Positions 1 through 31,151 of a stretch of 64,000 nucleotides of DNA are shown here, piece after piece; position 1 is the first letter of the stretch, and every line of letters starts with the position of its first letter. The position numbers and the translations under genes were made by a program. The notes below the pieces were generated by a model. It searched no databases. It saw only the letters and a program-made list of their open reading frames with translations, and was not told the origin of the DNA. The DNA comes from Hydnum rufescens UP504. Taxonomy: Eukaryota > Basidiomycota > Agaricomycetes > Cantharellales > Hydnaceae. The DNA lies in the NCBI GenBank assembly GCA_014904985.1, contig MU128949.1, positions 157,323 to 221,322 on the forward strand. The letters are read 5' to 3'.

Positions 1-404
1 CTCTGCCAACTGGAAACCCACAACCCTGCCAAATGAAAACACGTGACCCTGCAGAGCAAAACATGGGGCCCATAGATAGATGTGTATAATATATATAATA
101 ATAAATTAATAATTATCCATGAGAATAAACAATAATAAATAAATAATCATAGTTGCTGATAAGCCCATTTGGCCTGTTGACCCACTTGGGGCATTCCCAG
201 GCTTGCTGGGACCTATCCTGATACCCCCAGCCAAATATATCCATGTGCTTCTGTTCACAGTGTTATTTGAGCTGTGGGGCAGACAGACCTAAGGTCACCC
301 TCTTGAGATTATTTGATATCAAAGGATTTTGATGCCCATTAGGCTTTTGATTTGATGCAGTTTGACCTACCTATTGAGGCCCCTCTAAGTGGCTGACCAA
401 GGTG
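1..404. mobile_element. hAT-like element 0, right-end fragment
   Basis: The stretch resembles the outer right arm of element 1: an exon-like CCAAATGAAAAC/ACCCTGCC segment, then an AT-rich ATA/TAA run (about 90-170), then a terminal block. The reverse complement of its end starts CACCTTGGTCAGCCACTTAG, closely matching the left terminus of element 2 (CACCTTGGTCAGTCATCTAA). The likely end is base 404 and the following 8 bases (CAAACCAT, 405-412) would be the target duplication, but its partner lies outside the window. The cassettes themselves are not in view. Confidence 0.6.
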
Positions 405-412
405 CAAACCAT

Positions 413-928
413 CGGTAGCAGTGGCAAGTGCCAATCCCTGACTCTAAAGCCATTGGGATGGTCCGGATGGTGGGGGCGATGCATTGGGATGTACTGATGG
501 TTTAGGAGAGAGGCACCTTAATCCTTACTGTGTATCATGCAGTTCAAGAGTTGTGTTGTTTCATCCAAGATTTTCTTTGTAGCTGGGTTCAAGGCTTTAG
601 GTTGGGTTTACTGATGTCAAAATAATGGCATTCATGGCCATTGGATGATGATGTAAACTTTGCAATGGATACATGAAGAGATGTGTATAAACTGAGCAAC
701 AATTTCTCATGCTTATTTGATGAATTGCAAAGCAAAGTCTGAGTCAAGACAGAATTCACTGATCCACTGCCTCTTGAACGTAGTCAATCATCCTCTAAAG
801 ATTCAGCTCTGATTGTCATTATAGCAACACTCTTGATGAGGGCCACAAATATGAACCCTTCCCATCTCCATCTCACTGTCCAATGTCCCCCAAACACATT
901 CTGGATACTCTTTAGGTGCATGGTCATT
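413..928. other. Unique spacer between elements 0 and 1
   Basis: No convincing ORF. The segment joins directly to 6277 onward if element 1 is removed, and minus-strand reading across the join gives short open stretches only. Nothing else recognised. Confidence 0.5.
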
Positions 929-936
929 CATCCTGA
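929..936. repeat. 8-bp target-site duplication of element 1 (left)
   Basis: CATCCTGA immediately precedes the element and is repeated exactly at 6269-6276 after its right end. Eight base pairs is the hAT superfamily length. Confidence 0.88.
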
Positions 937-1355
937 CAAACCAGTCAGCCATAATTGTATATCTAGTTAGGCCCTTTTGCCTTGCTTTTATTCAATCTAA
1001 GAGTGGGTTTTTAGGTGGGGGCCCCTGGGGCCCACTGGGTGATTTCATGGCATGAGACAAGGGGCCCCTCTCACCTTAGACTGGGACTTAGAGATTCTCA
1101 GACAATGGCAAGAAGTCACGGTCTTTCAGTCTGACTTAGAGATTCTCAGACTTGCAGGACAGCAGGCCATACAGGCTTATCAGGGATAGTATGTTCCATT
1201 TATAATTATTTATTTATTATCACTATATTATACTTATGCTACCCCAGGTCAGCAGGGTTTCATTCAGCAGTCCCATTATTCTTATTATTTATTTATTTAA
1301 ATACTGTATCTGTGGTACTCAGTAGAAATCCAAAGAAAAAACACTACTTAGTAGC

Positions 1356-3564
1356 ACCACACACCCACTCTAGCGGGTGTGTGGTACTGTCCATAGAAAT
1401 AAAAGAACACAAAAATTAAAATAAAAACTATCTAGTAGCACCACACACCCGCTTGGGCGGGTGTGTGGTACCGGGGGTGTGGCTTGGCACTTCACAGGTG
1501 GGCATGGGTTGTGGGTTGCCATTGGGGTGGGTCGTTGTTTTGGATCCTAGAATCATAGTGTATATTAGTAAAAAAATTCAAAGTAACACAAAAGGAGCAG
1601 CTTGTGCTGCTCCTTTGGTGCAGTTGTACTTATAGAGGGCAAATACTTACTTTAAAAATTATCACACCCGCCGAAGCAGGTGTGGGGTTCATCCGGGGCT
1701 TCTGTGGCCTCGCGTCGTGTTCTGTCGTTTGCGGGTTTCATTTGGGGGATGGGTTGCTGTTGTTGCGTATTTATTCGGCGGGGTCGTGAGTCTTGATTGA
1801 GGGTTTAGAAGAATACCTATGATAATAAGTAATAAGTTAGTAAAAAAAGAAAAACCATGCAAAAGGAGCAGCACATGCTGCTCCTTTTGCGCGGTCGTAC
1901 TTAAACAGTAAATACTTACGTTAAAAATTATTATCACACCCGCTGAAGTGGGTGTGGGCTTCATCTGGGGCTTCTGTGGCCTCGCGTGTTCTGTCATTTG
2001 CGGGTCTCATTTGGGGGGTGGGGGTAGATCAAAACCTAGGATAAGGAATACTATGTTAGTAAAAAAAAACAAAAAGAAAAGCTACACCAAAGGAGCAGCA
2101 TACGCTGCTCCTTTGGTGCGGTCATATTTATTTACCTTAAAATTACCACACCCGCCGAAGCGGGTGTGGTTCATCTTGGGGTTCCGTGGTCTCGCGTCGT
2201 GTGTTACCGTTCACAGGATTCGTCTGGTGGGTGTCCCTTGGCCAGTCATCGTTGGCGGGCTTCGTTCGGCATTGGTTTTGGTGGCTTGGCGGGTCACATT
2301 GTCATTTCCGGGGGGGAGGGGGTTCGTGTGGTGGGTGGTGAGGTGATAACCTAGAATAAATAAATTGTGGGTTAGTTAAAAAATTAAAATGAATGCAAAA
2401 AGAGCAGCTTTCGCTGCTCTTTTTGCGCTGTTGGGGGTGCATTACATACTGAGTATAGAACCACACACCCGCAGTAGCGGGTGTGTGGTTCGTCTCTTTG
2501 TGTGGTGTGTCGTCATTCGCAGATCCCCTTTGCGGGTGTTACAGTTCTGGGGGGACTTGTTTCATGGGGCTTCATTTGTGGCAATACCTAGAATAAGCGA
2601 TTATTAGTTAAAAAATTAAAAGTGACGCAAAAAGAGCAGCTTTCACTGCTCTTTTTGTGTCGTCGGGGGTACAACACCTTGTATAGAACCACACACCTGC
2701 TACTGCGGGCGTGTGGCTCTTCTCATCGTGTGGCACGTCACCATTCGCGTGTTGTTGTTCTGGGGGGGGCTTGCTTCGCGGGTTTTCATTTGTGATGATC
2801 CCTAGAATAAAAAAATAATGAGTTAAAAAATTAAAAGCAATGCAAAAAGAGCAGCTTTCGCTGCTCTTTTTGCGTCGTGTTGGGGGTACACTACACACCT
2901 TGTATAGAACCACACACCCGCTACTGCAGGTGTGTGGCTCTTCTCTTCGTGGCACGTCATCGTTCGTGGGGGTGTTGTTGTCCTGGGGGGGGCTTACTTC
3001 ACGGGTGTTCATTTGTGACAATACCTAGAATAAAAAATAATTAGTTAAAAAATTAAAAGCAACGCAAAAAGAGCAGCTTTCGCTGCTCTTCTTGTGTCGT
3101 TAGGGGTACATACCAAGTATAGAACCACACACCCGCTACTGCGGGTATGTGGTTCATCTCTTCGTGTGGCGCACCATTTGCGGATCCCCTTTGTGGGTGT
3201 GTTGGGGTTGCTTCGCGGGTCTTCATTTGTGGCAATACCTAGAATAAAATATTATTAGTTAAAAAATGTAAAGCGACACAAAAAGAGCAGCTTTCACTAC
3301 TCTTTTTGTGTGGCTGTATCTATTGGGGGGGGGGGACTCACCTTAAATAGTACCACACCCGCCACAGCGGGTGTGGTTCCTGGGGCCACTCATTGGGCAG
3401 CCTGTCATTTGTTTTGGTTTTGATCTGGAATAATAAAGGCTACGTTAGTATAAAGATTCACGGCGGCACAAAAAGAGTAGCTTGCGCTACTCTTTTTGCA
3501 CTACTGTAGGTACTGAGACAAAACTTACCTTATGACCACACACCCACATCAGCGGGTATGTGGT
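1356..3564 (-). repeat. Left-arm exon/intron cassette array, element 1 (nine hairpin introns)
   Basis: Read on the minus strand, introns lie at about 3528-3425, 3341-3239, 3113-3025, 2898-2802, 2677-2588, 2449-2351, 2135-2036, 1919-1817 and 1650-1547. Each has a good 5' site (GTAAGT, GTGAGT, GTATGT, GTGTGT, GTGTTG, GTAAAT), a TACTAA(C/T) or AACTAAT branch point and a 3' site of TCTAG, CCTAG, ATAG or CCAG. Each contains one hairpin: arms GCAAAAAGAGCAGC in the six inner introns, GCAAAAGGAGCAGC-type in the three outer ones. Each exon ends, about 8-15 nt before the 5' site, in another palindrome (arms ACCACACACCCGC or ACCACACCCGC). Exon palindromes start near 1356, 1440, 1663, 1935, 2145, 2460, 2690, 2909, 3124, 3352 and 3535. 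Exons are rich in CCAAACGA/CAAATGAA words. Splicing is inferred, not shown. Confidence 0.78.
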
Positions 3565-3594
3565 CGTGTGGCCGTGGTCGTGCGCTGGGGCTGC

Positions 3595-3626
<32 letters not shown>

Positions 3627-3785
3627 TTGCTGTGTTGCTGTTGCTGTTGTGTCATGGTCGTGCGGTCGCCTTTCTGTTGCAGGGTGTGGCTGCGTAGTTG
3701 CAAAATTCAACACCGGCAATTGCCGATACTCAAGAAGCGCCCAAGCGCTGGTGCTACAAGCATGGCACACATCCATAGCAAGCAT
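3549..3785 (-). CDS. First exon of left-arm transcript, element 1 (hypothetical, polyQ)
   Basis: On the minus strand an ATG at 3785 opens a 78-codon frame starting MLAMDVCHACSTSAWALLEY, with a Cys-rich start, then a TTQPHPATERRPHDHDTT stretch and a glutamine run encoded by the CTG/CAG tract. It stops (TGA) inside the exon palindrome about 20 nt before the GTAAGT splice donor at 3528. The matching frame in element 2 has no stop and runs open to the donor, and the right-arm copy (4274-4453) encodes a near-identical start. Three copies keeping the same frame suggest it was once translated. I recognise no domain; function unknown. The TGA here may be decay. Confidence 0.45.
3585..3652. repeat. 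CTG/TTG trinucleotide tract
   Basis: An interrupted (CTG)n/(TTG)n run on the plus strand, i.e. CAG/CAA on the coding minus strand. A shorter homologous tract is at about 24671-24715 in element 2, where the frame reads partly as alanine/threonine instead. The right arm of element 1 lacks it. Confidence 0.8.
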
Positions 3786-3948
3786 GTAGATATGGAATAA
3801 ATAGTATATAATAAATATTTGTCCAATAAAATGCAAAGAAAAAGAAGATAATGGGTCAGAGCTCAATAAGGCATGATATGGTTAATTGCAAAGTGGATTG
3901 GGCCAGTTCTATGCATCAGGATTAGCCCAAATTTAAATATAGTGATGG

Positions 3949-3956
3949 TATATATA
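3949..3956 (-). promoter_or_regulatory. TATA-like motif, left arm
   Basis: TATATATA mirror-placed to 4103-4110 about the palindrome axis, about 165 bp upstream of the minus-strand ATG at 3785. Position and duplication are suggestive only. Confidence 0.3.
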
Positions 3957-4102
3957 CACCCTACACGGGTGATTAATTATCTCGGACGATTCTCGCATTT
4001 TCCAAGTTTTCACGCCTTCAATTCCCTATTTAGGGAATTGAAGGCGTGAAAACTTGGAAAATGCGAGAATCGTCCGAGATAATTAATCACCCATGTAGGG
4101 TG

Positions 4103-4110
4103 TATATATA
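4103..4110 (+). promoter_or_regulatory. TATA-like motif, right arm
   Basis: TATATATA about 165 bp upstream of the plus-strand ATG at 4274; mirror copy at 3949-3956. A second AT-rich block (TTATTATATACTATTTATT) lies 20-35 bp upstream of the ATG and is an equally good core-promoter candidate. Confidence 0.3.
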
Positions 4111-4273
4111 CCATCACTATATTTAAATTTGGGCTAATCCTGATGCATAGAACTGGCCCAATCCACTTTGCAATTAACCATATCATGCCTTATTGAGCTC
4201 TGACCCATTATCTTCTTTTTCTTTGCATTTTATTGGACAAATATTTATTATATACTATTTATTCCATATCTAC

Positions 4274-4453
4274 ATGCTTGCTATGGATGTGTGCTGTGCT
4301 TGTAGTGCCTGTGCTTGGGCGCTTCTTGAGTATCAGCAATTGCTGGCATTGAATTTCTCATCTTCCTTTTCCTCTCTGCAACCACAACAGGCTATCACCC
4401 GGAAAGGCAAGCGTGCGACCACACACCTGCCACTGCGGGTGTGTGGTCATAAG
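4274..4453 (+). CDS. First exon of right-arm transcript, element 1 (hypothetical)
   Basis: The ATG at 4274 opens MLAMDVCCACSACAWALLEY and stays open for 60 codons to the GTGTGT donor at 4454, ending HLPLRVCGHK. It corresponds to the left-arm exon at 3549-3785 but lacks the CAG tract. The exon palindrome itself encodes the final TTHLPLRVCG. Joining phase 0 to the next exon at 4558 keeps the frame open for about 60 more codons, into the 26-bp minisatellite. No domain recognised; a signal peptide is not obvious. Confidence 0.45.
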
Positions 4454-6022
4454 GTGTGTTTTTTTGCTTGTAGATACAACGGCGCAAAAAGAGCAGCATA
4501 AGCTGCTCTTTTTGTGCTTCTTTGAATCTTTTACTAACATATCATGTATTCTTCTAGATTGAGGCCTGGGGTCCAAGGCACGACAAAAACCCGCGAAACA
4601 AGGGCCCAAACAGCAACGCCCCAAACGAAGACGCACCAAATGATGCGACATATAGCACCGCGCCAACAACACGACGTACGGCACCATGCCAACGACGTGA
4701 CGTATGGCACCACGCCAACGACGTGACGTACAGCACCACGCCAACAATGTGACATACGGCACCACGCCAACAACGTGACATACAGCACCACGCCAATGAC
4801 GTGACACACGGCACCGCGCCAACGACACGACGTACGGCACCACGCCAATGACGCGACATACAGCACTGTGCCAACGACACGACATACAGCACCCCGCCCA
4901 CAACACGACGCGCGAGAACCCCCGTAACCCCACCCATCGACACCCAAACAACGGGCCCATGGGCTGGAGTACAGCCCCAGTACCCCACACCCACTGCAGC
5001 GGGTGTGGGGTACTACAAAGTAAGACTTCTTTTTTCTTTTTTATTCTTGTGGCGCAAAAAGAGCAGCGTAAGCTGCTCTTTTTGCGCTGCTTTGGAATAT
5101 TTTACTAATATCTTTATTTATTTCAGATTGAGGCCTCATCCAACAATGAGAGCCCAAACAGCAATGCAATGCACGGAAATGCAACACGGCAACGCGATAT
5201 ATGGCAACGCAACACACAGCAACGCGCCACCCCATCGCGCCAAACCCCAACGTGCCAATGACGCAACATACGGCACCGCACCAAACGAGGGCGCAACTGC
5301 GTCAAATAACGCCCCAGGAATCACACACCCGCCATGGCAGGTGTGTGGTTCTATACTAGGTGAGTTCCTGCCCCCCCCAGTACCTACAGCCACACAAAAA
5401 GAGCAGCAAAAGCTGCTCTTTTTGTGTGATGTTTAATTTTTAACTAATTTAAATGTCGTCTTGTCTAGGTCTTGAGTCCTCCTGCAAACGAATACCAACG
5501 CAAAACCCCTTGCCACCCCACTTATCGATGCCCAAATGACGGGGCACAGAGAAGACCTGTATGAACGGTCGTACGGATGACCTGGAGTCCACGGCCCAAG
5601 TACCCCACACCCCCGCAGTGGGTGTGGGGTACTACAAGGTATGTTTGATTTTTTATTTTTATTCCTTATTCTTGTGGCACAAAAAGAGCAGCATGAGCTG
5701 CTCTTTTTGTGCTGCATTCATGTTTAACTAACTCATTAACTACTTCTCTAGATATTGGACCAGAACCCGCACGGACCCCCAGCCACAGACCTGCCAAACG
5801 ACATGCCCCAAACGAAAACTGGGAACGAAACCGCGCACAACCGCACAAACAAAAACTGGGAACGAAGCCATGAAGGCCTGCATGAACAAAAACTGTGAGC
5901 AACACCCCCTTGAGGGATCACCCAAATGGACCCCACGCCTGGACTGGGGTGAATTCCAGGTAAGTGCTTTTTCTTTAGCTACACTTGCACAAGAAGAGCA
6001 GCCTCTGGCTGCTCTTCTTGGG
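4454..6022 (+). repeat. Right-arm exon/intron cassette array, element 1 (five hairpin introns)
   Basis: Plus-strand introns: 4454-4557 (GTGTGT, TACTAAC, TTCTAG), 5020-5126 (GTAAGA, TACTAAT, TTTCAG), 5360-5468 (GTGAGT, AACTAAT, GTCTAG), 5639-5751 (GTATGT, AACTAAC, CTCTAG), and a fifth donor at 5960 (GTAAGT) whose acceptor I cannot place. Each contains the hairpin with arms GCAAAAAGAGCAGC (or a close variant; the fifth has AAGAAGAGCAGC at 5991-6021). Exon palindromes with arms close to CCCCACACCCGC precede the donors at about 4418, 4982, 5321 and 5603. Exons run 4558-5019, 5127-5359, 5469-5638 and 5752-5959. Introns of 104-113 nt fit fungal norms. Confidence 0.78.
4636..4915 (+). repeat. 26-bp minisatellite inside a cassette exon
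   Basis: About ten copies of a 26-nt unit of the form CCAACGACRYGACGTAYGGC plus ACCACG. Because 26 is not a multiple of three, the reading frame rotates through all three phases. Units with GTGACG create TGA stops in one phase; units with ACGACG do not, so CpG decay could have closed an originally open exon. Confidence 0.88.
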
Positions 6023-6059
6023 CACAGGGTGAGCCCCACTGGGCAAGCCTATGGATGTA

Positions 6060-6112
6060 TATACTAATATAATAATAATAACAATAAATTAATAATAATA
6101 ATAAATTAATAA
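6060..6112. repeat. AT-rich (ATA/TAA)n tract near right end of element 1
   Basis: Low-complexity TAATAATAA-type run, matched in position by 90-170 in element 0 and 30905-31000 in element 2, so it is a family feature. Confidence 0.8.
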
Positions 6113-6268
6113 TGCATAATCTGGCAGGGGCCCCTGGGCTGCTTGGGGGGCCCCTTGATTGTATTGCAGGGGCCCCTGGGGGCCCCCACATGTAAAGACC
6201 TAGTTAGATATGATAAATGCAATGCTCATGATATCTAATATGATGTGGAAAAGTGACTGACCAGCCTG

Positions 6269-6276
6269 CATCCTGA
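6269..6276. repeat. 8-bp target-site duplication of element 1 (right)
   Basis: CATCCTGA, identical to 929-936. Confidence 0.88.
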
Positions 6277-7400
6277 AACTCAGGAAGTTTTAGACAACGG
6301 AATGGCCATATTCTTTCACGGTTTGTCTTCCTTTCATCTCTCATGCAAATGGCTACTGCATTGTCTCCTTGGAGATCATGCTCCAATGTCGAATCCAGCA
6401 ACTTCACAAAGTTCAAAGCTGGAGAACCTCCCTATCCAATCCCAAATCCAAAGACCACATCCATGCAATGATAATGGTAGCACTCTCATTTCAAAGACAA
6501 GAGTTGGGATCACAGGTAGGTGGACCACATACCTCTAGCCTGGATGGACCATGTACATCCCTGCCACTCTGGATGTTTGAAATACTCAGTCTTCATGCCT
6601 GGAACACCATGCTTGTCTATAAAATTTTTGAGGTATTCTGCATCCTGTAACAGAGTTGGCTTGGATAGGATGCAAATCTGTGGTATGACAGGCAAGCCTC
6701 ATGACATCCATCAACAGGCTGTGTTTATTTCTGTCATCCTCCCTGTCCTGTTGCATGTCCTGCTGAGCCTGGTGAATTTACTCACTGGGCATTCAAGAGC
6801 AGTCAGATCAATTTGACAGAGGCAGTGCCAGTTCCTCTAATCAAAGTGTGGCACAGACCACGGTCCAAAACTCTACTGAAGTACAACAGAACCCCTTGGC
6901 ATCTAGTCAAAGTTCAGTTGTCTCATCCATGTCTGTGTCCTCTGTTCATACTGCTGGCATGGCACAGGCACAAACCAGACCCTCTAATCCAACACCCTCG
7001 CCTTTTGTCCCACGCAATCCTCTGTCACAAACCCAAGTCGAGAATACAAGTCCACAACCTGGAAATTCTTCGCTCACCCCACCCAATGGCAGACCAAAAT
7101 CTCTCGAACCCTTCCCATCTCATCATCCAGTCCCTCTGACCAGGATATGATGTGGACTTCCATGCGAATATGACCATATTCTTTCACAGTTCATCTTCCT
7201 TTCATCTCTTGTGCAAACAGCTACTGGATGTGCATTTACCAGCAGTATACATTTACTCGGGCCATGCTGTTGCCTCTGTCATCCTCCCCACTCTGTTGCA
7301 TGTATTCACTCTTTGTCCTGCCAAGCCTGGTGAATTTACTCATCTTGCTGTCATTGTCAGTACATTGATTTCACTTCATCTATAAGGGGGAGACCAAGAA
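6277..7400. repeat. Degenerate duplicated low-copy region
   Basis: Blocks recur as direct repeats: 6302-6365 resembles 7170-7225 (ATATTCTTTCAC, CTTCCTTTCATCTCT), and 6720-6790 resembles 7270-7345 (TCATCCTCCC, GTTGCATGT, CTGGTGAATTTACTCA). Only short frames are open. It looks like decayed pieces of a dispersed gene or transposon family. Confidence 0.55.
6815..7147 (+). pseudogene. Fragment of a dispersed Ser/Thr/Pro-rich gene family
   Basis: The plus-strand frame reads ...QTTVQNSTEVQQNPLASSQS... and continues Pro/Ser-rich (SSVHTAGMAQAQTRPSNPTP). The same peptide series, slightly diverged, is encoded on the minus strand at 50793-51177, so this is a dispersed repeat of coding origin. It is low complexity, probably disordered, with no recognisable domain. 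Flanking coding sequence is missing, and nearby segments are duplicated noise. Function unknown. Confidence 0.45.
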
Positions 7401-7844
7401 GTGATTTGAAGTTCTCCATAATGATGTCATCAGATGCCTTGCTTCTGTAGAGGCCCTTATTGTGTTTGGTCTGCTCACAGGCATCTGAGGGCCGACTCAA
7501 GAGTTCAATGTCTTTTGACTTGGGCTAGGATCTTGCTTTTTTGGCAGACAGAAGAATCAGTTGTGAGCCCTCTCCTCACCTCCCAGGAGACACTTAATCC
7601 CTGCATCACACATGAATCTTTGTTCAATCCCATGTGCAGGTTTGTCATCTGAAACAAAGTAGAGACAGCCAAGGATGTTTTCTGATTTGCAATGATTTCA
7701 TGTAGGTAGTGTACATAGTTCTTCTTGTCATCTTCCAATGCTAAGTTCTGTGTTTTCTTCTTCATACTTGTTTTAATCATCTGATTTTTTCCAACTGTCT
7801 TCAGCAGCAAGGTGTGTCCCATGGAAGTTCACTGTACACCATTC

Positions 7845-8225
7845 ACCTTTACAGATGGTGGCTGGTGAGTCAAATTTGGGAGGGACATTGCCCTTGTGCT
7901 GTGTTTCCTTTGCCCAAGCTCAAAATTTTTTCCATTGCTTCTGTCTTTTTTTCTTCTGTTCATAATCATATAGCACTTCTGCTTGAATTTCATCCAAGTC
8001 CTTGTTGTCCTCATCTTCGGAAGTCCACTATAGATGGGTTATCTTTACAGATCATGAGTGAGAAATTTTTTGGATTGACATTATGCTTATGCTGTCTCTC
8101 TTTTGCCCAAGCCTGGAGCTTTCTTATAAACTCTTGTTTCTTCTTCTTTTGTTCATAGTCATGTAGCACATGAGCCCAGATTTGTTCTAAGCTCCTATTG
8201 TTTTTGGTTGGGAGTTTGGGGGCTT
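7845..8225 (-). repeat. Two tandem units (about 185 bp) encoding a charged helical segment
   Basis: On the minus strand two adjacent units encode similar peptides of the kind HVLHDYEQKKKKQEFIRKLQ ... AWAKERQHKHNV, with the second copy at 7829-8014. The duplicates have drifted, and the outer one is out of frame in places. The Lys/Glu-rich composition suggests a coiled helix. No family recognised. Confidence 0.5.
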
Positions 8226-13198: not shown

Positions 13199-15687
13199 TT
13201 GGTGGAGTGTGTAAGAACCCAATCACAGGGTTCTGTACTCAACCTTTCTGGCCTCGACTGGGCTCTCAAGAACCTTGTTGAAGAAACACCTAGCCCCCTC
13301 TCGTACAGGATGGACACCTCAAGAGGGGTGGGTACTCCCCCAAAAAATTGTATGACTCAAGGTCTTGACTGGGCCCAAGGGGCTGAGCCTAGAACCGAGT
13401 CTGTTTCCAGTTCTGTTTCCACAGCCTCTAGCCTCATGAGTACTGTGTGGAAACCGGGCCACTTAGCATGGCAGACTACCTCAACCTCATGGCCAGGCAT
13501 ACCTGGGACCTTACTTAAGGTGTTCCCTTCGACTCCCAAACTTCCCTCCTTATGACAAGGGTACGTCATGCCTGTGTCCTGCAGCACACCTAGGGACCCC
13601 CAATGAGATACTTCGATGGCCATGTCCACACCCTCTGAGGGCACCCAATCCTCGAGCAATGAGGCCCGTGCGAGTGCCCAACCAGTTGATCAGGAAATGT
13701 TGCGTTGCAGGGCCCTACTAGTGTCCATAGCTGACTCTGTCCAATGTGAACAGGGGACTAATGCAGCTGCCGACGTACATTTAATTAATACATCCCTGTA
13801 CCACCTGGCATACAATCTTGATGTCGAATCCCTGGCTTTCACCAACACTATCGTACGAGTAGATCATCCGGGTCAACCTACCGTCTACAAGCCCAATGTA
13901 GAGTTCTGTCTCACCCTGCTACAATGCGGCCAGATTCTACAGGACTCTGCAGCAGAGATGGCCAAGCACTATTTCCTAACTGTACTGGATCTGTACCTGT
14001 TCGATCCCGGAAATGTACTATCCATACACTTAGAAGCAGGAGTCGCCTCAGAGAATAAGGTCTCTCAACTTGTGGCCCTAGCCCTACATCAACTATGTTC
14101 AGGTCTAAAGGTCATCGCGCAAATTCAAAGTGTCGATGAAAACGAGTCAGTAGCATACACGACCAACTCCAACGCCCAGGGATACGCTACCAGGGTCCTG
14201 GAGGACACTTCTAGGACAGTTTCGCCACTGGCTGCATACTCAGTACATGAAAATGAGTTAGCCTGGCATAACCAGGAGGCCCCCATGCCCGGGACCCTCA
14301 TTAGTGACGAAGGCACCCAACTGCCACGACCCCAATTTGAGACCCAACGACCTCGTCCTTCGGTGGATCCCCTATGACAACCTACCCAGGCGAGCCATTT
14401 CTTGATACCTAGGGCCCCCAGAATGGAGACCCACGATCATAGGACGGAATCCATTCCCAGGCCTGTGGTGTTGCCTCCTGTAGGATGAATGCCGCCTCCA
14501 CAGGGAGGTTCTAATGGACAGAGGTGGAACCTCCCCAGTGGAGGGCCCCCTGATGATGACGGGATGAGCCATGGTGGAAGAGGGTCACCCAGGGGAGGCC
14601 CACCGCTGCACTGCTGACAGCCAGGGGATCTTAGGAATGGATTCCCAAGTAGGGGAGCACCAGATGGAGGTCCACCAGGTTCAGGACCCCCAGAGGGTGG
14701 ACCAGCACCAATTGGTACACCAGGGCCACCAGAGGGGCCCTACAACCCAAATGCATACTATGAGCCAAAGTTTAAGCTCGAATTCCGACCCAGCGACTTG
14801 CCAGAATACGACAGGTCTGACAACTCCTTCGTAACATGGACAGAGGACTTGGACCAGTATGCCGCAGGCAGCCAGCATATGCATGAGCAACTTGCCTTTG
14901 CGGCCACCATGTGGTTTACCAAACATGCTGACGTCTGGTGGTGAAGCCTACCCAGTGCCACCAAGAGCCAAGCCAGCCAGAACTGGGATTCCCTGAAACA
15001 TGTTATGCGGACACGACTACTGGGTAACCGTTGGTATGACAAGCAAGTCACTATTTATGATGAAATGCATTATTGCAACCGGGGCATGAAAAGGAAACCC
15101 CCATGGAATGGCTGATGTGGAAGGTATGAGCCAGACATGTACTACACCTGCCACCCAAGGCCTTCAACCCCACCTTCGATTCGTTGGAAGTAGGCACTAT
15201 CATGGAACATGCTCCCCCTTCCTGGTGGGTGTACATGGACGTGGACCTGTGTCACAACACTGATGCCTTATTCACTAGGGTCAAGGATCAGGAAGACGCC
15301 TTATTGGCGATATCCAATCTGGCCCACTCCCGTCAAGCCGAGGACATTGCCGAAGACATTCTGAGACGAGTATGGGAGGATCTCAGGCGTAACCATTATT
15401 GCACTTCCACCATGGTGGCTAGTCCCAGTGCCACAAATTTGGGGTTCCGGTACGAAGTCAGTGATGTCAAATCTAAGAGAAAGCCTATTCGGCCCTGCCA
15501 TCACTGCAGTAGTGAATGGCATTACAACTATGACTGCAGTTCCTACAAGAAAGATCCCAACCGGGCCAGGCCAGCTGCTAGTACGAAATGCGAGACCGCC
15601 TATTGGAAGGCCTATGTGGCCATGTCTTCTGGATCCGAAGGAAGCATACCAGTCAGCCATGATGGTGGCTCACAAGGCCCTCAGTAG
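13091..15687 (+). pseudogene. Gypsy-1 Gag (decayed)
   Basis: Frame 2 is open from an ATG inside the LTR (13091), through the PBS (ELTLVEC), and on to about 15095, broken only by TGA codons (13553, after 13597, 14375, and others near 14486, 14611 and 14942). A one-base shift near 15095 moves it to frame 1, which ends at TAG 15687. The C-terminal part has a canonical CX2CX4HX4C zinc knuckle (15496-15537, C-HH-C-SSEW-H-YNYD-C). The mid region (14770-15230) has the helical, Trp-containing character of a retrotransposon capsid. A proline/glycine-rich linker lies at about 14500-14740. Gypsy-2 encodes a homologous N-terminal part. The LTR-located start is supported by conservation of the frame in Gypsy-2. 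Confidence 0.8.
13200..13217 (+). other. Primer-binding-site candidate of Gypsy-1
   Basis: TGGTGGAGTGTGTAAGAA begins one base after the LTR; its reverse complement ends in CCA as a tRNA 3' end should. Gypsy-2 has the same sequence in the same place (below 44252, minus strand). I cannot name the tRNA. Confidence 0.6.
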
Positions 15688-17036: not shown

Positions 17037-17900
17037 GAACTGGTTCCAGGTACAAAGCCCATCTCAGCCATGCCGCACATCACCTCGCCAGCAAAAAGAG
17101 AGCTCATCAACAAACAGCTTGACCTATGGCTGAGGCAAGGAGTAATTGAACCATCAAACAGTCCTTGGGGGGCACCTGTCCTAATAGTCCACAAGAATGG
17201 CAAGGACCGTCTATGTGTGGACTGGAGAAAACTGAATGCAGCTACAGTGTTGGACCAGTTTCCCATACCTAGGCAAAGCGATATACTCCAAGCCCTATCC
17301 GGAGCCCAATACCTGTCTTCCTTTGATGCCTTAGCAGGGTTCACCCAACTCGAGTTTGATGACATCTCCCAACCTTACATGGCCATGAGGACCCACCACG
17401 GACTACACCAGTTTGCACGAATGCCTTTTGGATGGAAAAACAGTCCTCCCATTTTCCAACATGTGATGCAGGAAATCCTGTCTCCCTACCTATGGATATT
17501 CATGTTGGTGTACATTGACGACATAGTGGTCTACTCACACACATTCGACGAGCACCTAAGCCATATTGCCATAGTCCTGGAAGCCATCAGAAAGTCTGGT
17601 ATTACCCTAGCGCCCCACAAATGTCATGTGGGCTATCGTAGCATACAATTATTGGGTCAGAAGGTATCACGGCTGGGGTTGTCTACCAACGCCGAGAAGA
17701 TATGGGCCGTCACAGCCTTAGCTACCCCACGCCATCACAAGGACTTGGAAACATTCTTGGGCATGGCTGTATACTTTGCAGTGTACATTTCATGATTCTC
17801 CGGCATCGCCACTCCACTGTTTGCATTACTAAGAAAGGGCATGCCTTGGTTATGGAAGGCTGAGCACAATGAGGCATACAGTATGATGAAACAAGCACTG
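17037..17900 (+). pseudogene. Gypsy-1 reverse transcriptase
   Basis: After the shift the frame reads VPGTKPISAMPHITSP, the conserved entry to Ty3/Gypsy RT. The order then is GVIEPSNSPWGAPVLIV, DWRKLNAATV, FDALAGFTQLEF, FGWKNSPPIFQHVM and the catalytic VYIDDIVVYS (YIDD at 17511-17522), followed by LGQKVSRLG and FLGMAVYF. All catalytic aspartates are present. One in-frame TGA occurs after YIS (about 17793). The upstream frameshift and the TGAs elsewhere mean no functional polyprotein. Confidence 0.93.
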
Positions 17901-18500
17901 ACATCCACACCAGTACGAGGGCACCCTATTCAGGGCCAAGGGTACAGGCTGTACACAGATGCCTCTGATGTAGCCCTCGCCAGCGCTCTGCAACAGATCC
18001 AGCCAATACTCATCAAAGACCTACGCCAGATGAAAGTCTATGAATGACTCCAAAGGGCATTCAAGGAGGGAGGTCCTGTACCTGATTTGACATTAAAGCT
18101 TTCAGACACACATGACGACCGCCCCCCCCCAAGTACTTGGGGCAATGCCTTCAAAGACACCCTTGTCCACATAGAGAGGGTTATCGCTTACTGGAGTCAT
18201 ACTTGCAAGCCCGCCAAGACCCATTACTCAGCCACTGAACAAGAAGCCCTAGCTGCTAAGGATAGTCTAATAAGATTTCTGCCATTTATTGAGGGCAAAC
18301 AAATCCTTCTCATGACAGATCATGCCGCCCTACAATGGGCCAAAACTTATGAGAATGCCAACCATCAGCTTAGTGCCTGGGGTGTGGTTTTCGCAGCCTT
18401 CCTGGGAATGACAATCGTTCACCAACCAGGGCGAGTCCATTCCAACATGGACCCCCTATCGTGGCTGTTGCAAACCCCAGAAGTAGTATCACCCCAAGAT
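17901..18500 (+). pseudogene. Gypsy-1 RNase H domain
   Basis: Starts with YTDASDVALASAL (17952 onward) and continues to EQEALAAKDSL (catalytic Glu) and LMTDHAALQW (Asp at about 18318), the three acidic positions expected. A stretch of about 40 codons between the first two blocks (18040-18150), with a TGA at 18045, looks like an expansion relative to compact gypsy RNases H. Ends PLSWLLQTPE. Confidence 0.88.
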
Positions 18501-19930
18501 CAGGATATCCCAAGACTCATCATAAACGATGAAAGCCAAGCTAAGGGATGGAACTGGGCCACCCACAATTCCAGTTTGGGCAAAGCGACATTCGTGTCAA
18601 CACGAGCCCAGAAGGCTGCACGAGAGGGAGCCAAGATGACTGACAGGGAACTGAATCCAATCCCTACTGACAGTCACAAACCACCCCCACTAGACCGACC
18701 TCCCCCAGGGCTGAACCTGTTCATCTCCCCCAAAACAGTACACCGGTTCTGGGAAGGGTACAACCAAGACCCCGAATTCAGGACTGTATGGACACAAATG
18801 GAAGCCATGCCCACCGACAGCCCTCCTCAGGAGCATAAAGTCAATATTGAATGATTCCAGCAATTCTCTAAGGGCAGCAATGGGCTACTCCTCTTTAAAG
18901 ATGCCGATAATCGCACAAGGTTGTGTGTCCCCACTAAAGAGCAACTCACCCTTATTAAGGAAGCCCACGACTCCCCCCACGAATCTGCCCATGGCTGGTG
19001 GGGAAAAACACTGGAATCCCTACGACAGGGGTTTTATTGGAAAACTATGCGAAAGGACATGCTAAACTACTGCAAAACATGCGACATCTGCCAGAAAACC
19101 AAGCATGACCGATTAGGGCCTAAAGGATACCTACGGCCCATTGGTATACCCAAACTACCCTTCAAGGTCATAAGTATGGATTTCGTGACAGGCCTCCCCG
19201 AGTCGAGAGGACAAAATGCCATACTAGTTGTTGTAGACAAACTCACAAAATATGGCATCTTCATACCGACCACAACCCAAGTCTCAGCAAACAGAGTGGC
19301 AGCATTACTGCACAGAGAAGTATACAAACACTTTGGGTTGCCCAAATGAATTGTAAGTGATCATGACCCCCAATTCGTAAGCAGCTTCTGGCACGCCCTG
19401 GCAGATTACTTTGACACTTGACTAGCCATGTCTACCTCGCACCACCCCCAGACAGATGGACAAACCAAAGTCATGAACCAACACTTGGAAACTATGATAT
19501 GGTGCTACGTCAATGCAGACCGAACCAACTGGGCTGAATGGTTGGACATACTGGCATCAGCCTACAACAGAGCCGCCCATTCTGCCACACAGACCTCACC
19601 TGCTGTGCTCCTGTTTGGTTATATGCCCCGCATGCCTCTATGCCTACTACAAGAGTCCGCAGGGCTAGTGCTCACAGACAACCCATTAGCAGATGACCGT
19701 ATCAGTGCCCTACACATCTGCAGAGACCTAGCTCGGGATGCTATCATTCATGCTGCCAACACACAAGCCTATCTATATGACAAGAAGCAAAGGGCTGTAC
19801 TCTACAAAGTAGGCAATGAAGTACTATTGAATCCCCACTTGTTAGAACTTGTCAACATCAAAGGGACAGGACACAAACTTATGCAATGATGAATAGGCCC
19901 CTTTGAAATTACAGAAGTTATTAACCCTAC
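18501..19930 (+). pseudogene. Gypsy-1 integrase (zinc, core, start of GPF/Y)
   Basis: After a linker of about 130 codons comes the HHCC zinc module: EAHDSPHESAHGWWGKT, then CKTCDICQ (18960-19095). The catalytic core has MDFVTGLP (first Asp, about 19178), VSDHDPQFV (second Asp) and HHPQTDGQTKVMNQHLE (Glu about 19488). In-frame TGAs occur after GLPK (19348), at DT-LAMST (about 19420) and as a pair just before IGPFEI (19888-19893). The GPF/Y module (IGPFEITEVINP) is interrupted by the LTR-D insertion at 19931 and resumes at 20778 with MAYRLRLPDMM. Confidence 0.92.
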
Positions 19931-22180: not shown

Positions 22181-22510
22181 CACCTTGGTCAGTCATCTAA
22201 GCCTACCTAGTTAGGTACCACTTCCGGGGCAGATAATGGTACCTAAGTAGGTCCCATCACTATTTCGGCCGAAATGGCCATTTTTATGATTTCACCTCCT
22301 GAACCAGAATTGGCCGAAATGGCCGAAAATTGGCCGAAACTGGGACTTGGAGAATCTCAGACTTGCAGCAGGCCATACAGGCTTATCGGGGATAATATCT
22401 TCCATTTATAATTATTTATTTATTATCACTATATTATACTTATGCTACCCTGGGTCAGTGGGGTTTCATTCAGGAGTCCCATGTTTTATTCTTATTATTT
22501 ATTTATTTAT

Positions 22511-24641
22511 TTAAAATTATACCACACACCCACTCTGGTGTGTGGTACTCTGTAGAAATAAATTAAAAAAAAGACTACTTAGTAGCACCACACACCCACT
22601 CTAGCGGGTGTGTGGTACTGTCCATGTGAATCAAAGAACAAAAAAATTAAAATAACAACTATCTAGTATCTAGTAGCACCACACACCTGCTTGGGCGGGT
22701 GTGTGGTACTGGGGACATTATTTCGCGCTTCACCATTGGGGTTCCCCCTCACCCATGGTCGTGTGTTTTCACTCGGCGGGGTCGTGGCTTCGGTTGGGGG
22801 ATGCAGGTTCAGAAGAATACCTATGATAATAAATAATAAGTTAGTTAAAAAAAGAAAAAACCAGGCAAAAGGAGCAGCCCCTGCTGCTCCTTTTGCATAG
22901 TCGGACATGTACATATATACTTACCTTAAAGATTACCACACCCGCCGAAGTGGGTGTGGGGTTCATCCGGGGCTTGCGTCGTGGTTTCAACTCGTTGCCA
23001 TTCGCGGGATTTGTTTGGCGAGTGGGTCATCGTTCTCCTGTGTTCATTCAGCAGGGTTGCAGGTGTTGGGTCCAAATGACAAAATAAAATAATAAATAAT
23101 ACATTAGTAAAAAAAAAAACAAGGAAAGCCACGCAAAAGGAGCAGCATATGCTGCTCCTCTTGCACGGTTGTACTCACCTTAAAATTACCACACACCTGC
23201 CGAAGTGGGTGTGGGGTTCGTCCAGGGCTTGCATCAGGGTTTCGACTCGTTGCTGTTTGCGGGATTCGTTTGGCGGGTGGGTCGTCATTCTCTTGTGTTC
23301 ATTTGGCGGGGTCACGGGTGTTAGGTCCAGATGACAAAATAAAATAATAAATAATACGTTAGTAAAAAAAAAAAACAAGAGAAGCCATGCAAAAGGAGCA
23401 GCATACGCTGCTCCTCTTGCGCGGTTGTACTCACCTTAAAATTACCACACACCCGCCGAAGCAGGTGTGTGGTACTCTCTTGGGTTTGGTCTGGCCAGTC
23501 ATCATTGGCATGTTTCGTTTGGCATGTGTTGTTTTGGTGGGTCGCATCATCATTCCCAGGGGGGAGTTGGGTGGGTTCGTTTGGCGGGTTGTCATTTTGC
23601 TTGACCATCTAGAATAGTAAATATGTTAGTAAAAGAAAAAAAAGAAGAGCCACGCAAAAGGAGCAGCGTACGCTGCTCCTTTTGCGTGGTTGTATTTACC
23701 TTAGAATTATCACACACCCGCTTCAGCGGGTGTGGTTCGTCTGGGGTCCCTGGGGCCCCGCGTCGTGCATTCTCGGTCCCGGGTTTCGTCTGGGGGTGTT
23801 CCTTGGGGTGTTGTGTTGTCATTTCCCAGAGAGGGGGTTCGTTTGGCGGGTGGTTCAGGCGATAGCCTAGAATAATAGAGAATCTATTAGTTAAAAATTA
23901 AAACAAACGCAAAAAGAGCAGCAAGGGCTGCTCTTTTTGCATTGGTGAGGGGGGGGGTGCACTAATTACTTATCTTGTATAGAACCACACACCCGCTACC
24001 ACGGGTGTGTGGTTCGTGGCTTCGTTTGGCACATTGTCGCTCACGGGTCTTGTTTTGTGGGAGTTTGATCTCAGGGGGGGGGGGCTCGCTCCATGGGTCT
24101 TCATTTGTGGTGATACCTAGAATAAAACATTATCAGTTAAAAAATTAAAACCAGCGCAAAAAGAGCAGCATTTGCTGCTCTTTTTGCGCCGTTGGGGGTG
24201 CACAAGATTACTTACATTGTATAGAACCACACACCTGCCACAGCGGGTGTGTGGTTCGCGTGGCCACCTCTTGTGTTTTCGCTTGGCATTGTTTTGTTGG
24301 GTGTGGTGTGGTTTCATTGGGTTTGGTGTGGGGTTGGGCATCGTTTCATTTGGCTTCGTTTCGTTTTGTTTCGCATGGTTTTGCATATTTCCACTGGGGC
24401 CCTGGCCAATCAGGAGACTCACCTTAAATAGGACCACACCTGCTGCAGCGGGTGTGGTTCCTGGGGCCACTCATTGGGTGGCCTGTCATTTGTTTTGGTT
24501 TTGGTCTGGAATAATAAAGGCTATGTTAGTATAAAAATTCACAGCAGCACAAAAAGAGTAGCTTGTGCTACTCTTTTTGCGCTATTGTATGTATTGAGAC
24601 AAAACTTACCTTATGACCATGCACCCGCCTCAGCAGGTGTG
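22511..24641 (-). repeat. Left-arm cassette array, element 2
   Basis: Hairpin introns on the minus strand end (5' site) or start (3' site) at about 24609-24506, 24215-24117, 23983-23867, 23699-23609, about 23435-23330, about 23178-23080 and 22924-22821. The inner three carry the GCAAAAAGAGCAGC arm and the outer four the GCAAAAGGAGCAGC arm, the same order as element 1. The intron ending at 23983 has ATAAGT instead of GTAAGT, and two outer introns have lost the CTAG acceptor (CTAGA to CCAAATGA/CCAGATGA). A GTGAGT donor near 24422 follows an exon palindrome but has no hairpin intron after it. Exon palindromes lie at about 22511, 22592, 22679, 22935, 23190, 23447, 23709, 23983, 24224, 24435 and 24614. 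Confidence 0.75.
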
Positions 24642-24849
24642 TGGTCATGTGGTCGTGGTTGTGCGCTAGGGCTGCTGCTGTTGCTGCTGTTGCTGCTGTT
24701 GCTGTTGCTGTTGTGTCATGGTTGTGCGGTCGCCTTTCTGTTGCTGGGTGTGGCTGTGTAGTTGCGAAATTCAACGCTGGCAATTGCCGATATTCAAGAA
24801 GTGCCCAAGTGCTGGCACTACAAGCACAGCACACATCAATAGCAAGCAT
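24610..24849 (-). CDS. First exon of left-arm transcript, element 2 (hypothetical)
   Basis: ATG at 24849 opens MLAIDVCCACSASTWALLEY, then NFATTQPHPATERRPHNHDT, an Ala/Thr run from the CTG-type tract, and ends VHGHK exactly at the GTAAGT donor (24609), 80 codons with no stop. It is the best-preserved of the three copies (others 3549-3785 and 4274-4453). Phase 0 at the donor. No domain recognised. Confidence 0.5.
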
Positions 24850-25169
24850 GTAGATATGGAATAGATAATATATAATAAATATTTATCCAATAAAATGCAA
24901 AGAAGAAGAAAATAAAGAGTCAGAGCTCAATAAGGCATGAGATGGCTAATTGCAGAGTGGATTGGGCCACTTCTATGCATCAGAATTGGCCCAAATTTAA
25001 ATATAGTAATTTTATATATACACTCTACGTGGGCGATTGATTATCTCGGATGATTCTCACATTTTTCAATTTTTCACGCCTTCAATTCCCTATTTAGGGA
25101 ATTGAAGGCGTGAAAAATTGAAAAATGCAAGAATCATCCGAGATAATCAATCGCCCACGTAGAGTGTAT
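24767..25169. repeat. Central palindrome of element 2 (right arm cut by gap)
   Basis: Axis between 25093 and 25094, with CAATTCCCTA / TAGGGAATTG as in element 1. The right arm matches perfectly for about 75 bp up to the N run (25170) and is then lost; a diverged continuation appears at about 27700-27790. Confidence 0.85.
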
Positions 25170-25194
25170 NNNNNNNNNNNNNNNNNNNNNNNNN
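25170..25194. other. Assembly gap (25 N)
   Basis: Placed in the right arm of the palindrome, a structure that commonly breaks assemblies. Confidence 1.
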
Positions 25195-28100
25195 ATGAAA
25201 AGAAGAGAAGAGAAAAAGTAGAATCTCGTCAGAGGAATTGGAAGCAGCGGTACGCCTCTCAATCTCTATATACGTGGTTGCATACTCCTTGATTGAACTT
25301 CCATGGAGTCCTCCCCTTCAGGTAAGCTGTGTTGGTGATGGTCTCATCTGCAACTATAAGGGGCGCGGCGTTCCCGGGCTGTTTTTCTCTCTTGAACTTG
25401 GCGCATTCATTCTGTCTCGGAGGGATGATGTATCGTTCTTCGCGGGACCTGCTCTCTATTGTCCATTTCTAGTCATTCGAGAAAGAGTGGACTGTCGATT
25501 TCAGGGCGTGGCTGGGTATGGCGTCAGAAAGAGATAGTTAGTATTAAACGAAGGGAAGATTTATTGATTGCAAAGAGAGAGATATTTAAACGAAAATCAA
25601 GCAGGATGCAGCTAATGTCTGCTCTGGGATCAGATACGTTACGTTTATTGGTGTGATTTGTTATTGAGGCATAGAATGGAATGGATATACTCTAGTCATT
25701 AATTCTTGGTGTATTGTTTTAAATACATGACAACATCACCTCGCTTTTAGCTCGTCTGCTTGGTCGTGTGGTATTATCGAAAGTCGCGGGTACTGATTTT
25801 GTGTCCATGTTCAGCTCATTCTGGCATACTTCCTCTTTTTTCGTTGTATTTTATCTCGTTGGTTGTGTTTGTGTGTTGTGTGTGTGCTCCTCCAGTCATT
25901 CATTTTTTATACCTATGAAAAAAATTATCAGTTAAAAAATTAAAACCACGCATAGAAAGTAGGAGTCAGCATTTGCGCCGATAGGTGCTTCTTGAGATTA
26001 AGCGCTCTTTGCTGGGCGCGCGAAGATGTGCAAACGCAGGTAGTTCATGGGCTATCCAGCGAACGGGGTAGTCGGAAGGAAGCACATCGCGCGCTCCAAG
26101 CGACGATGTTGTTTTGTGTTGGACTACTGCGGTTCCGTCTCGGTCGGCGTGGTTTTCTCGGCGTTTGGATGTTGTTCGGGTTTTGTGTAGTCGTGTAGTG
26201 GTATGGATTTAAGAGTGCATGAGTGCCGGTTGTGGTAGGGATGATTGTGCTATAGGTATGGTGGCGTCGAGTAGAAAGTTCGATTGGTTGTCATAGTGTT
26301 TCGTTCGGATTCTGGTGCGGAGCCATTTGTCTACGTACTTAACTGGGTGTCCATTTGCCAATCTGGGTAAAGAAATATTACACACCGGCTCGACAGGCGG
26401 CGGGGGTCAGGTCCATAGGGTCGCACGTAATTTTTTCAGGTACCTTTTTTTATGTTTCGGGGGCATGAAGTAAATAATGGTACCGGCTTATATGTATGAG
26501 GATCCTCGCACAGAACCTATTTCATCCCAGGCCAGGAATACATAGCTGCAAATTGCTCATTTGTACAATATTTGTTGATTGTTGTTTTTTTTTTTGGGGC
26601 CGCACATTCTTAACTCCAGTATGGCACCACATCTGTCACTTGCGCTTCGTGCAGGCTTAAGATTGGTGTTATGGTGTTCTGTTTATTGGTCGTTTTACTA
26701 TTGATTTGTTTACTCACTTTATGGTATTGATTCTCTGGCGGCTTTTCTTATCCTCATGCTAGTTACTCAATTCTTTTATTTACGTAGTATTTTATATTTC
26801 GTTGTACACCTATATTTCTTCATCGAATTCAACGCATTCAAGTGCCGAGTTATAATTTTCCAACCCGGAACCCCAACCCCTGGGGTTTGCGCTTACCTTT
26901 GACCACACGCGGGGGCACACATTCAAGATGCATCATGAGATGATGAGTAGATTAATATATGGTAAGATTCATAGCACAGGAGCACGGACGCTGCCATATT
27001 ATTTTACCACACACACCACGGACCCCAGAATGATGCAGAGGGGTGAGGTCAGTTTCAAGAAATAGCAGCCATTGAGGAGGCTCAGAGATGCGAGACGTGA
27101 TTGGGCCACGTTGGTCTTGTTCACTTTATTGCGCGCAGGGAATTTTGCCTAAATTGGGGGAGCTTTAAGGATTTTGTCGTAATCGTTTATTAGGATAGCA
27201 CCGGTTTGTTCGCGTTTGTCGTTTGCGGCGCGTCCATTCGGCGGGTTGTGGTTGCAGGCACTTATATTCGTTTGCTCAGGCGAGTTTTTGGGGACTTATC
27301 AGGATTCTTAGAGGATTTTCATTTAAAATGAAGGGCTATTGTTTTGATACTAGTCATTTTTTTTCGACGCGGCATTTATTTCAATTATCCGCTTAGACAG
27401 GGAGCTTATGCTGCTCTTTTTGCGGCCAACGAACTGGAAAGGAATTTATTAAAATACGGGAAGGAATCATTAGAAAAGGAGATGAAAGAAATACCTAATG
27501 AACCTTGTTGGTAGAGGTATTTAGCTGATAACACCAACCACGGCACAGCTGGCATGGCGGAGTTAGTTCGGGTACTGAGGCCGCTGTTTTATAAATCGGG
27601 TCGATACTGCCTTTGGAAGTGCAGTAGGATGCAGGTGCTGCTGATAATAGGTTTATCCATTCCTCAGGCGGTTTCTTCGTGAGTGGGTGTGTATCAGGTC
27701 TCTTACTCTTATTTTCTTCTTCTTTGCATTTTATTGGATAATATATTTATTATATATTATCTATTCATATCTACATCCTTGGCTTTGGAGGGTGGGTCAG
27801 GCGCTCGCTCGTTGCTCGAGTTACCGCTTGTTCCTGTGCGTGTTTGGTATTGGCATTCTGCGCTTCTTTTTTCATTCCCTCAACACATACAACGAGGGTT
27901 CCAGGAAATTCAAGCTGGTGCGGTGGATCTGCCACAGGATTAGAGAAATATCACCCGCCATATCGTGTGTGTTTGGAGGCTCAATTTATAAGTATGATAT
28001 TTGATTATTTTGTTGGGCTTGTAATAAACAGCGAGCAAGCAGTAGCGGGCGACTAAAGCATCTATCGGACAGCGCACGTTTAGATTGTGGTCGACTCTGT

Positions 28101-28689
28101 GGAATCGATTTATACTACATAATAGTATAATACCTAATTCTTCAGTTTGTAGTGTGAGGCCGGGCTGCTAACAGGCCCACGGACAGTAGCATAGCACGGC
28201 TGAGGATAGTCGCGCGGTACTGGGCAAGCATAACCTCTCGAGACGAAGTAGCACTCACCCAGAGACGGTTTTTGTAGCGGAGTCAGTTCACCCCTAAGGA
28301 CACTGATGGCGGTCCACCACACAACATTTTTATCGGGCATTGGCACCAATTTGATGTGGCCGACATAGGTTTTAGCAGCGGGATCCAGGGGGTTACGCCC
28401 ACGGTGTGTCGGGGGATATGGTCATCGCATCGTACATGGCCACGAAGAAGTTAAAACGACGCTTAGCTAATAGAAAGGATTACTAGCGACAATCAACGTG
28501 GCTGAGATGGTTTTTAAACTGGCATACACATTTTTGGATCACGACCACGCCAACGGACACACAACGGCAATTTTCGCCAAACGGCGCGGATAGCACGGTC
28601 AACCGCCAACGGGACCGGATTACCGGCACGCCGCCAAATGGGAGGACGTGTGACATCGTAATGCTGCGCCAAACGAGGACGCGACCACG
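25195..28689. other. Scrambled, low-fidelity copy of array sequence
   Basis: Recognisable but badly degraded echoes of the left array occur in order: 25915-25990 resembles 24115-24185 (TATCAGTTAAAAAATTAAAACCA, then a broken GCAAAAAGAGCAGC), 26100-26200 resembles 24280-24370, 26340-26420 resembles 24395-24480, and 27700-27785 resembles the palindrome arm 4205-4290. 28540-28690 resembles the CCAACGACACG exon. Substitutions and indels are dense and random, unlike the C/T-biased decay elsewhere. No gene is supported here. It is either uncorrected long-read sequence or a very old copy. Confidence 0.6.
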
Positions 28690-29436: not shown

Positions 29437-29517
29437 ATCCTGAACCTGAACTCGTGTACACCCCCAACCACAAACCTGCCGAATGATGCGCCACAAACGA
29501 AAACTGCGAACAAGCGC

Positions 29518-30738: not shown

Positions 30739-30742
30739 GCGC

Positions 30743-31080: not shown

Positions 31081-31151
31081 ACCTCTTAGGTACCATTTTC
31101 TGCCCCGAAAGTGGTACCTAAATTAGGTCCCCTATGTGACTGACCAGCCTG

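Follow-up and report, generated by a model that had tools for sequence, protein, structure and literature searches.

Miniature inverted-repeat transposable elements (MITEs) usually measure under about 800 bp, are non-coding and carry the ends of an autonomous partner. Within the Kyakuja-Dileera-Zisupton (KDZ) transposons, 8-bp target-site duplications (TSDs) are reported for Zisupton and 7-bp ones for Kyakuja (PMC12730594). Introns of Saccharomyces cerevisiae, in turn, contain zipper stems, for which the criteria are a distance of at least 10 nt from the 5' splice site and at least 20 nt from the branch point, with linkers of 42-85 nt (PMC12350175). Here we discuss the element at positions 937-6268 of a stretch of 64,000 nucleotides (the window) from the basidiomycete Hydnum rufescens UP504 (assembly GCA_014904985.1, contig MU128949.1, positions 157,323 to 221,322 of the forward strand). 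On balance we consider it probable that this is a non-autonomous transposon, likely of the KDZ type, whose cargo consists of intron-like arrays reading outward from a central palindrome that is likely a double promoter, and whose spliced RNAs are likely non-coding. In the structural part of this reading we have considerably more confidence.

Ends, copies and transposase affiliation

The element spans exactly 937-6268, between two identical copies of CATCCTGA at 929-936 and 6269-6276. Its left terminal repeat (937-951, plus strand) is CAAACCAGTCAGCCA, which full copies repeat with little or no change, and its right end, read as the reverse complement, is CAGGCTGGTCAGTCA (6254-6268, minus strand); the two are equal at 10 of 15 places, and all five mismatches are transitions. 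In the 63 Mb of the genome (539 contigs, the window lying on contig C41) the terminal motif CARVCYRGTCAGYCA has 1,021 sites, against one for a reversed control. Copies with both ends in hand measure 4.6-9.0 kb, and perfect 8-bp duplications, which differ between copies, flank eight of the eleven: the window element, a second element at 22181-31151, and the copies on C63, C19, C381, C310, C193 and C169. An earlier note on this DNA, made from the letters alone, had described inverted ends and 8-bp duplications at 937-6268, and both are indeed there; its expectation that genome copies would carry such duplications holds for these eight copies and fails for three (C134, C346 and C7). The second family member in the window is 8,971 bp long with ATGACAGC on both sides, and it has seven minus-strand and three plus-strand units, the right arm of its palindrome being mostly gone. 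Judged from its sequence, 937-6268 is a mobile element that has transposed in the past.

The same note called the element hAT-like, and here we disagree. The right subterminal region with its GGGGCCCC repeats (6168-6268, the end of the match being approximate) has its homologue in the right end that a KDZ-encoding family carries. When it is aligned with the right end of one member, L066 on C13, which encodes CxC1 and KDZ domains and whose right end is CAGGCTGGTCAGCCAATTATC followed by GGGGCCCC repeats, 80 of the 103 columns match (E=2e-17). Right ends of the L066 type stand at 39 separate places among 65 listed matches, the other 26 having been left out as partial or internal-repeat matches, and at least seven of the 39 (L066 included) have a KDZ domain 1,834-1,897 bp inside in the same orientation. 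The terminal motif itself was followed for 4 kb on the inner side at 99 of 100 listed sites (of the 1,021). Among the KDZ matches listed, a KDZ domain lies within that distance at four sites, all four antiparallel and in the same relative orientation; an hAT dimerisation domain lies within it at none. That the element is an hAT transposon after all seems to us very improbable. Its 8-bp duplications are compatible with hAT, but they are not specific to it; the genome does hold 90 matches to the hAT dimerisation domain, and one of the 39 KDZ-type right ends has such a match 497 bp inside, but around the 12 best of the 90 hAT loci, over about 1.5 kb on each side, the terminal motif is absent even with two mismatches allowed, and the right end is the one common to the KDZ family.

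KDZ transposase domains are numerous in this genome, with at least 154 matches from the 150 of 584 candidates that were scored; none of the matches listed lies on the window contig. No KDZ transposase gene was found in the element, whose sole open reading frame (ORF) of at least 150 amino acids (210 amino acids, minus strand, over a 26-bp repeat) was not put to Pfam. A boundary of shared homology considered for a KDZ partner was discarded, as it is not a terminal repeat. Given the shared right end and the 8-bp duplication, its best placement is among the non-autonomous KDZ elements.

Intron-like units and the central palindrome

Left of the palindrome lie nine minus-strand units and right of it five plus-strand units, all reading outward; all 14 that the earlier note had counted could be located. 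In transcript order a regular unit consists of an exon hairpin (CCACACACCCGC..GCGGGTGTGTGG), mostly 7-11 nt, the 5' splice site AG/GTRAGT (the slash marks the splice site), about 30 nt, an intron hairpin (AAAAAGAGCAGC..GCTGCTCTTTTT), about 21 nt, the branch point TACTAAY, about 20-24 nt, and TATTCTAG at the 3' splice site. A GT..AG pair could be placed in 14 of 14 units, but the choice was made by a script, which takes the GT with the best score and, downstream of the branch point, the first YAG; GT and AG themselves are thus not independent evidence. Twelve of the 14 are regular, with 89-113 nt and a CTAAY branch point. The splice signals stand in the right order, as the earlier note had said; the exceptions are one unit that has no CTAAY and the last plus-strand unit, which has no exon hairpin.

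In the left array (minus strand) the predicted introns are, from the outermost full unit inward, 1547-1650, 1817-1919, 2036-2135, 2351-2449, 2588-2677, 2802-2898 (the irregular unit without CTAAY, with its hairpin at 2844-2871), 3025-3113, 3239-3341 and 3425-3528, the last being the first one met on leaving the palindrome; at the distal end of the array, at 1353-1471 on the same strand, there are two hairpins of the exon type that no intron hairpin accompanies. The right array (plus strand) begins with 4454-4557 and continues with 5020-5126, 5360-5468 and 5639-5751. Its last, atypical unit (5960-6127) has a 5' splice site and a hairpin, and measures 168 nt to the chosen AG. Most of right-array exon 2 is a 26-bp tandem repeat (4595-4932, plus strand), 26 not being a multiple of 3. 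RNA folding of five window units, among them those at 3425-3528, 4454-4557, 5020-5126 and 5360-5468, gives z-scores of -5.1 to -12.1.

The same architecture recurs across the genome. We collected 295 intron hairpins in 31 family pieces; the strand is ambiguous in 14 of these units, which were retained with one strand chosen, and hairpins with neither an exon hairpin nor a branch point were excluded from the counts of splice signals and of pair changes. The centre could be mapped in 26 of the pieces, and of the 217 units there that have an exon hairpin, 215 read outward; both exceptions are in one copy. A search with the oriented hairpin-plus-branch-point pattern, which the earlier note had proposed as a way to count copies, gave 4,745 matches (2306 + 2439) against none in the reversed control; there are many copies indeed, even though this figure is partly a double count, because the 5' end ATTAG/GT read backwards also yields CTAAT. 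The 15 longest pieces hold 10-21 intron hairpins each, some including parts of neighbouring copies, and exon lengths differ between copies.

As for the signals themselves, 224 of 233 units have a consensus-like GT no more than 30 nt from the exon hairpin. This count alone proves little, because the script picks the best GT, but that is offset by the 186 of 224 units in which the GT is exactly 7, 9 or 11 nt away. At a distance of 10-40 nt past the hairpin, 212 of 233 units have a CTRAY branch point, whereas the same search of the opposite strand finds one in 21 of 233. The 3' AG is given by construction as the first YAG past the branch point, which is not the case for the TATTCT that precedes it. 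All U2-type signals (5' GTRNGT, branch point and AG, in order and spacing) are present in 208 of the 233 units with an exon hairpin, and the predicted introns have a median length of 104 nt. Splice-site and branch-point motifs are, on these counts, conserved at conserved spacing, and we regard the units as predicted U2-type introns that would be spliced in outward transcripts. Of 265 junctions, 62% have G as the first base behind the 3' site and 80% have T as the second, so that many junctions read AG/GT and resemble a donor, a possible sign of the route by which units multiplied, or of stepwise splicing.

Between the arrays lies the palindrome that the earlier note had recognised: 668 bp, with two 333-nt arms (3696-4028, reading outward on the minus strand, and 4031-4363 on the plus strand) that are 96% complementary and separated by 2 nt. 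A 35-nt motif of the arm has 474 sites in the genome (up to three mismatches) and none in the control, hence there are at most about 237 whole palindromes; 40 candidates from a palindrome search of the genome were scored. Within a copy the left and right arms are on average 96.8% alike (range 93.4-99.7; 24 comparisons from the 23 examined copies with both arms, one copy giving two) versus 89.3% between copies, and 25 of 47 arms have their nearest relative within their own copy. The arms thus appear to be kept alike, most simply by gene conversion. Long palindromes are generally unstable, and given this instability a long palindrome whose arms are kept alike is a second puzzle posed by these elements. 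The right arm holds TATA and CCAAT-like blocks that occur also in a divergent subfamily of three copies, whose retained palindrome has the TATA-like sequence TGTATATAYA together with two motifs of the CCAAT type. It is likely that the palindrome contains two back-to-back promoters, where we assume outward starts. The earlier note had proposed two divergent, multiply spliced RNAs from one central promoter, with which these blocks and the conserved splice signals are compatible. An Rfam scan of 1-8000 returned no family at gathering score; at the palindrome centre there are sub-threshold matches to miRNA models, as expected of any long hairpin.

Some further observations concern the surroundings. 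Terminal motifs also occur in the window at 61271-61285 (no mismatch) and 15645-15659 (one mismatch) and are possible remnants of related elements. At locus L060 on C26 there is apparent nesting: a 4,544-bp stretch is bounded by two inverted CACCTTGGTCAGTCA ends, and the piece starts with another left end and contains 21 intron hairpins. Retrotransposon reverse transcriptase and RNase H domains are found at window 17070-18851, and a Pfam scan of ten window ORFs returned these two domain types only.

Hairpin evolution and rival explanations

RNA stems can accommodate G-U, while the same change on the other strand gives A-C. The 12 core pairs of the intron hairpin, over 210 distinct hairpins, hold 81 G-U versus 10 A-C; with 64 distinct cores the figures are 45 and 8 (p=2e-7, a value that, like the one given below, is only indicative, since related units are not independent events). 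Taken by piece (n=31), 27 are G-U-rich, one is A-C-rich and three are equal, and the bias holds for either strand of the contigs (27:7 and 24:3). Equivalent changes away from the stems, in ten left halves, stand at 45:35 (Fisher p=0.0006 versus stems), and the outer two pairs of these intron hairpins give 82:69. Moreover, in an alignment (A1) of 59 of the 64 cores, which is restricted to 4-nt loops and leaves out one locus, 10 of 14 pairs have changed on both sides, which none of 500 shuffles matches, and there are 51 covariation cells compared with a shuffled mean of 18.6. The intron hairpin, in other words, changes in the manner of an RNA stem of the outward strand. Its spacing to the two splice signals (medians of 27 and 20 nt, sum 46) is at the limit of the zipper-stem criteria.

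It could be argued that the hairpins act in DNA, as cruciforms or protein-binding palindromes, and that the splice signals are there by coincidence. As DNA, hairpins of either type form near-perfect palindromes, and the exon hairpin indeed has little strand bias (117 G-U and 86 A-C, most at two CpG pairs; by piece, 15 are G-U-rich, 10 A-C-rich and six equal), so that this hairpin may serve as DNA or as RNA. However, whichever contig strand a unit lies on, the bias of its intron stem goes with the outward strand, and the branch points are strand-specific (212 versus 21 of 233). A role of the intron hairpin in DNA only is therefore rejected, and the wider suggestion is hardly credible to us. That the hairpins and the palindrome give rise to double-stranded or small RNA, acting as a decoy or in self-regulation, is in our view distinctly improbable: near-perfect stems, a 668-bp palindrome, strongly negative folding z-scores in all five units folded and the miRNA-model matches speak for it, but the stems would be short for Dicer, the scanned region matches no Rfam family at gathering score, the miRNA-model matches are those of any long hairpin, and RNAs starting outside the centre would not carry both arms. 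Nor do we find it likely, though it deserves a serious hearing, that the arrays are passive, i.e. that introns and exons were tandemly duplicated in a non-autonomous transposon and have no present use. Pieces differ in how many intron hairpins they contain, copies differ in the lengths of their exons, and transposon copies often decay; on the other hand, splice sites, branch points and stems are retained in subfamilies about 25-30% diverged from the window copy, and decay would not favour G-U over A-C inside the stem only.

The remaining rival is that the arrays are two protein genes, possibly decayed, with many short exons and low-complexity repeats, carried by the transposon as genes rather than as RNA; in our opinion this is improbable. 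It has something in its favour. Both arms have, after an ATG, a leader frame close to MLAIDVCCACSASTWALLEYRQLPALNF, with no stop in 52 distinct changes where about two are expected, and the spliced frame of the copy on C346 runs for 321 amino acids across four junctions. Yet the synonymous changes in the leader (14 of 52, 27%) are inside the neutral expectation of 22-30%, the lengths of 193 exons are spread over the three phases as 63/58/72, right-array exon 2 of the window is largely the 26-bp repeat, and spliced frames other than that on C346 stop after 25-159 amino acids, that of the window right arm after 124. Exons have a T content of 14.5%, and being poor in T they would rarely contain stops from composition alone. 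One deposited model, P0133, is identical to window 24849-24610 over 80 amino acids and covers the left array of the element at 22181-31151. Its borders, which are themselves a deposited prediction, agree with two of seven predicted 5' and five of six predicted 3' splice sites; the other donors that it uses at five of seven introns speak against this rival. We reject protein coding as the main function; no coding constraint is seen in the exons, which are probably without coding function.

Certain points nevertheless weigh against the non-coding, KDZ-type, outward-transcribed element that we prefer. Fourteen deposited H. rufescens UP504 models treat such stretches as protein genes (two comparisons of gene models with the spliced translations gave 13 and 2, one in common), 90 of 193 exons have an open frame compared with 66 +/- 7 in shuffles, a mild excess, and five of the seven 5' sites that we predict in the region of P0133 are unused in that model. 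The three both-ended copies without an 8-bp duplication belong here as well, and KDZ mobilisation is derived from one end, the right one, together with the duplication length. The CCAAT-like blocks lie outside the TATA block, so that inward starts crossing the centre fit too. The RNA bias of the exon hairpin is much weaker than that of the intron hairpin (40:22 in distinct cores without the two CpG pairs), the strict spacing of yeast zipper stems is satisfied by only 91 of 222 units, and the dependence among related units, already noted, belongs in the same account.

What could such an array do for a transposon? Under our preferred reading each array would be transcribed outward from the palindrome and spliced many times into RNA. 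The stacked introns would raise the amount of element RNA and keep it off stalled spliceosomes, and the resulting transcription would keep copies reachable for the transposase. In Cryptococcus, also a basidiomycete, intron number and position are reported to alter the mRNA level cumulatively, with removal lowering it for most genes tested (PMC3744415), and poorly spliced transposon RNA is reported to be turned into siRNA, feeding RNA interference (RNAi) at stalled spliceosomes (PMC5851062). Given these intron effects on both mRNA level and RNAi, an efficient intron array would serve a transposon on both counts. We put forward this function, RNA level combined with RNAi avoidance, as a tentative suggestion. 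The broader idea that splicing itself is the cargo, with mirrored and self-multiplying intron arrays, selected RNA zipper stems and a palindromic double promoter homogenised by gene conversion, yielding high, RNAi-resistant expression and open chromatin, appears to us a genuine possibility, if one that falls short of even. If true, these elements would represent a class of mobile DNA that exploits the host spliceosome instead of coding for protein, and here would be a transposon that multiplies introns inside itself and not in host genes. It also makes two questions testable: can intron number alone lift the expression of a mobile element, and does efficient splicing shield transposons from spliceosome-coupled RNAi?

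Comparison with known systems

Like Foldback elements and MITEs, the family is non-autonomous, with inverted repeats and TSDs. Unlike these, its long inverted repeat is central and not terminal, and it is far longer than a MITE, so that membership among MITEs was rejected on the 4.6-9.0 kb of its both-ended copies. With the KDZ transposons it shares the 8-bp duplication of Zisupton and, as reported for Kyakuja, ends that start with CA and finish with TG; Kyakuja is, however, reported with 7-bp duplications and without terminal inverted repeats (PMC12730594). What sets it apart from autonomous KDZ elements is that no KDZ gene was found inside, the 4.6-9 kb being taken up by palindrome and intron arrays.

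Introners offer another parallel, in that DNA transposition, with TSDs, has scattered large numbers of similar intron-like sequences (PMC9860276, PMC12403724). An introner, though, is described as one intron of a host gene that has a splice-site-like end of its own (PMC9860276), whereas here there are 14 internal predicted introns, nine on one strand and five on the other, with their own exons, and we therefore do not class the element as an introner. Sequence-similar stwintrons with near-terminal inverted repeats are likewise many-copy fungal introns in which an RNA stem joins intron parts; these are reported as nested, in host genes and with the stem near the ends (PMC12403724), while here the introns form arrays in a transposon and the stem lies between donor and branch point. 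The zipper-stem introns of S. cerevisiae have a similar spacing, but they are single host introns (PMC12350175), and in Hydnum one mobile stem type is present in thousands of copies.

The earlier note knew of no described transposon with this layout, and we agree: searching the open-licence literature by title and start of abstract, we found no described element with mirror-image intron arrays. The mode of movement is a known one, and the mirror-image intron arrays carried as cargo are new, as far as these searches go.

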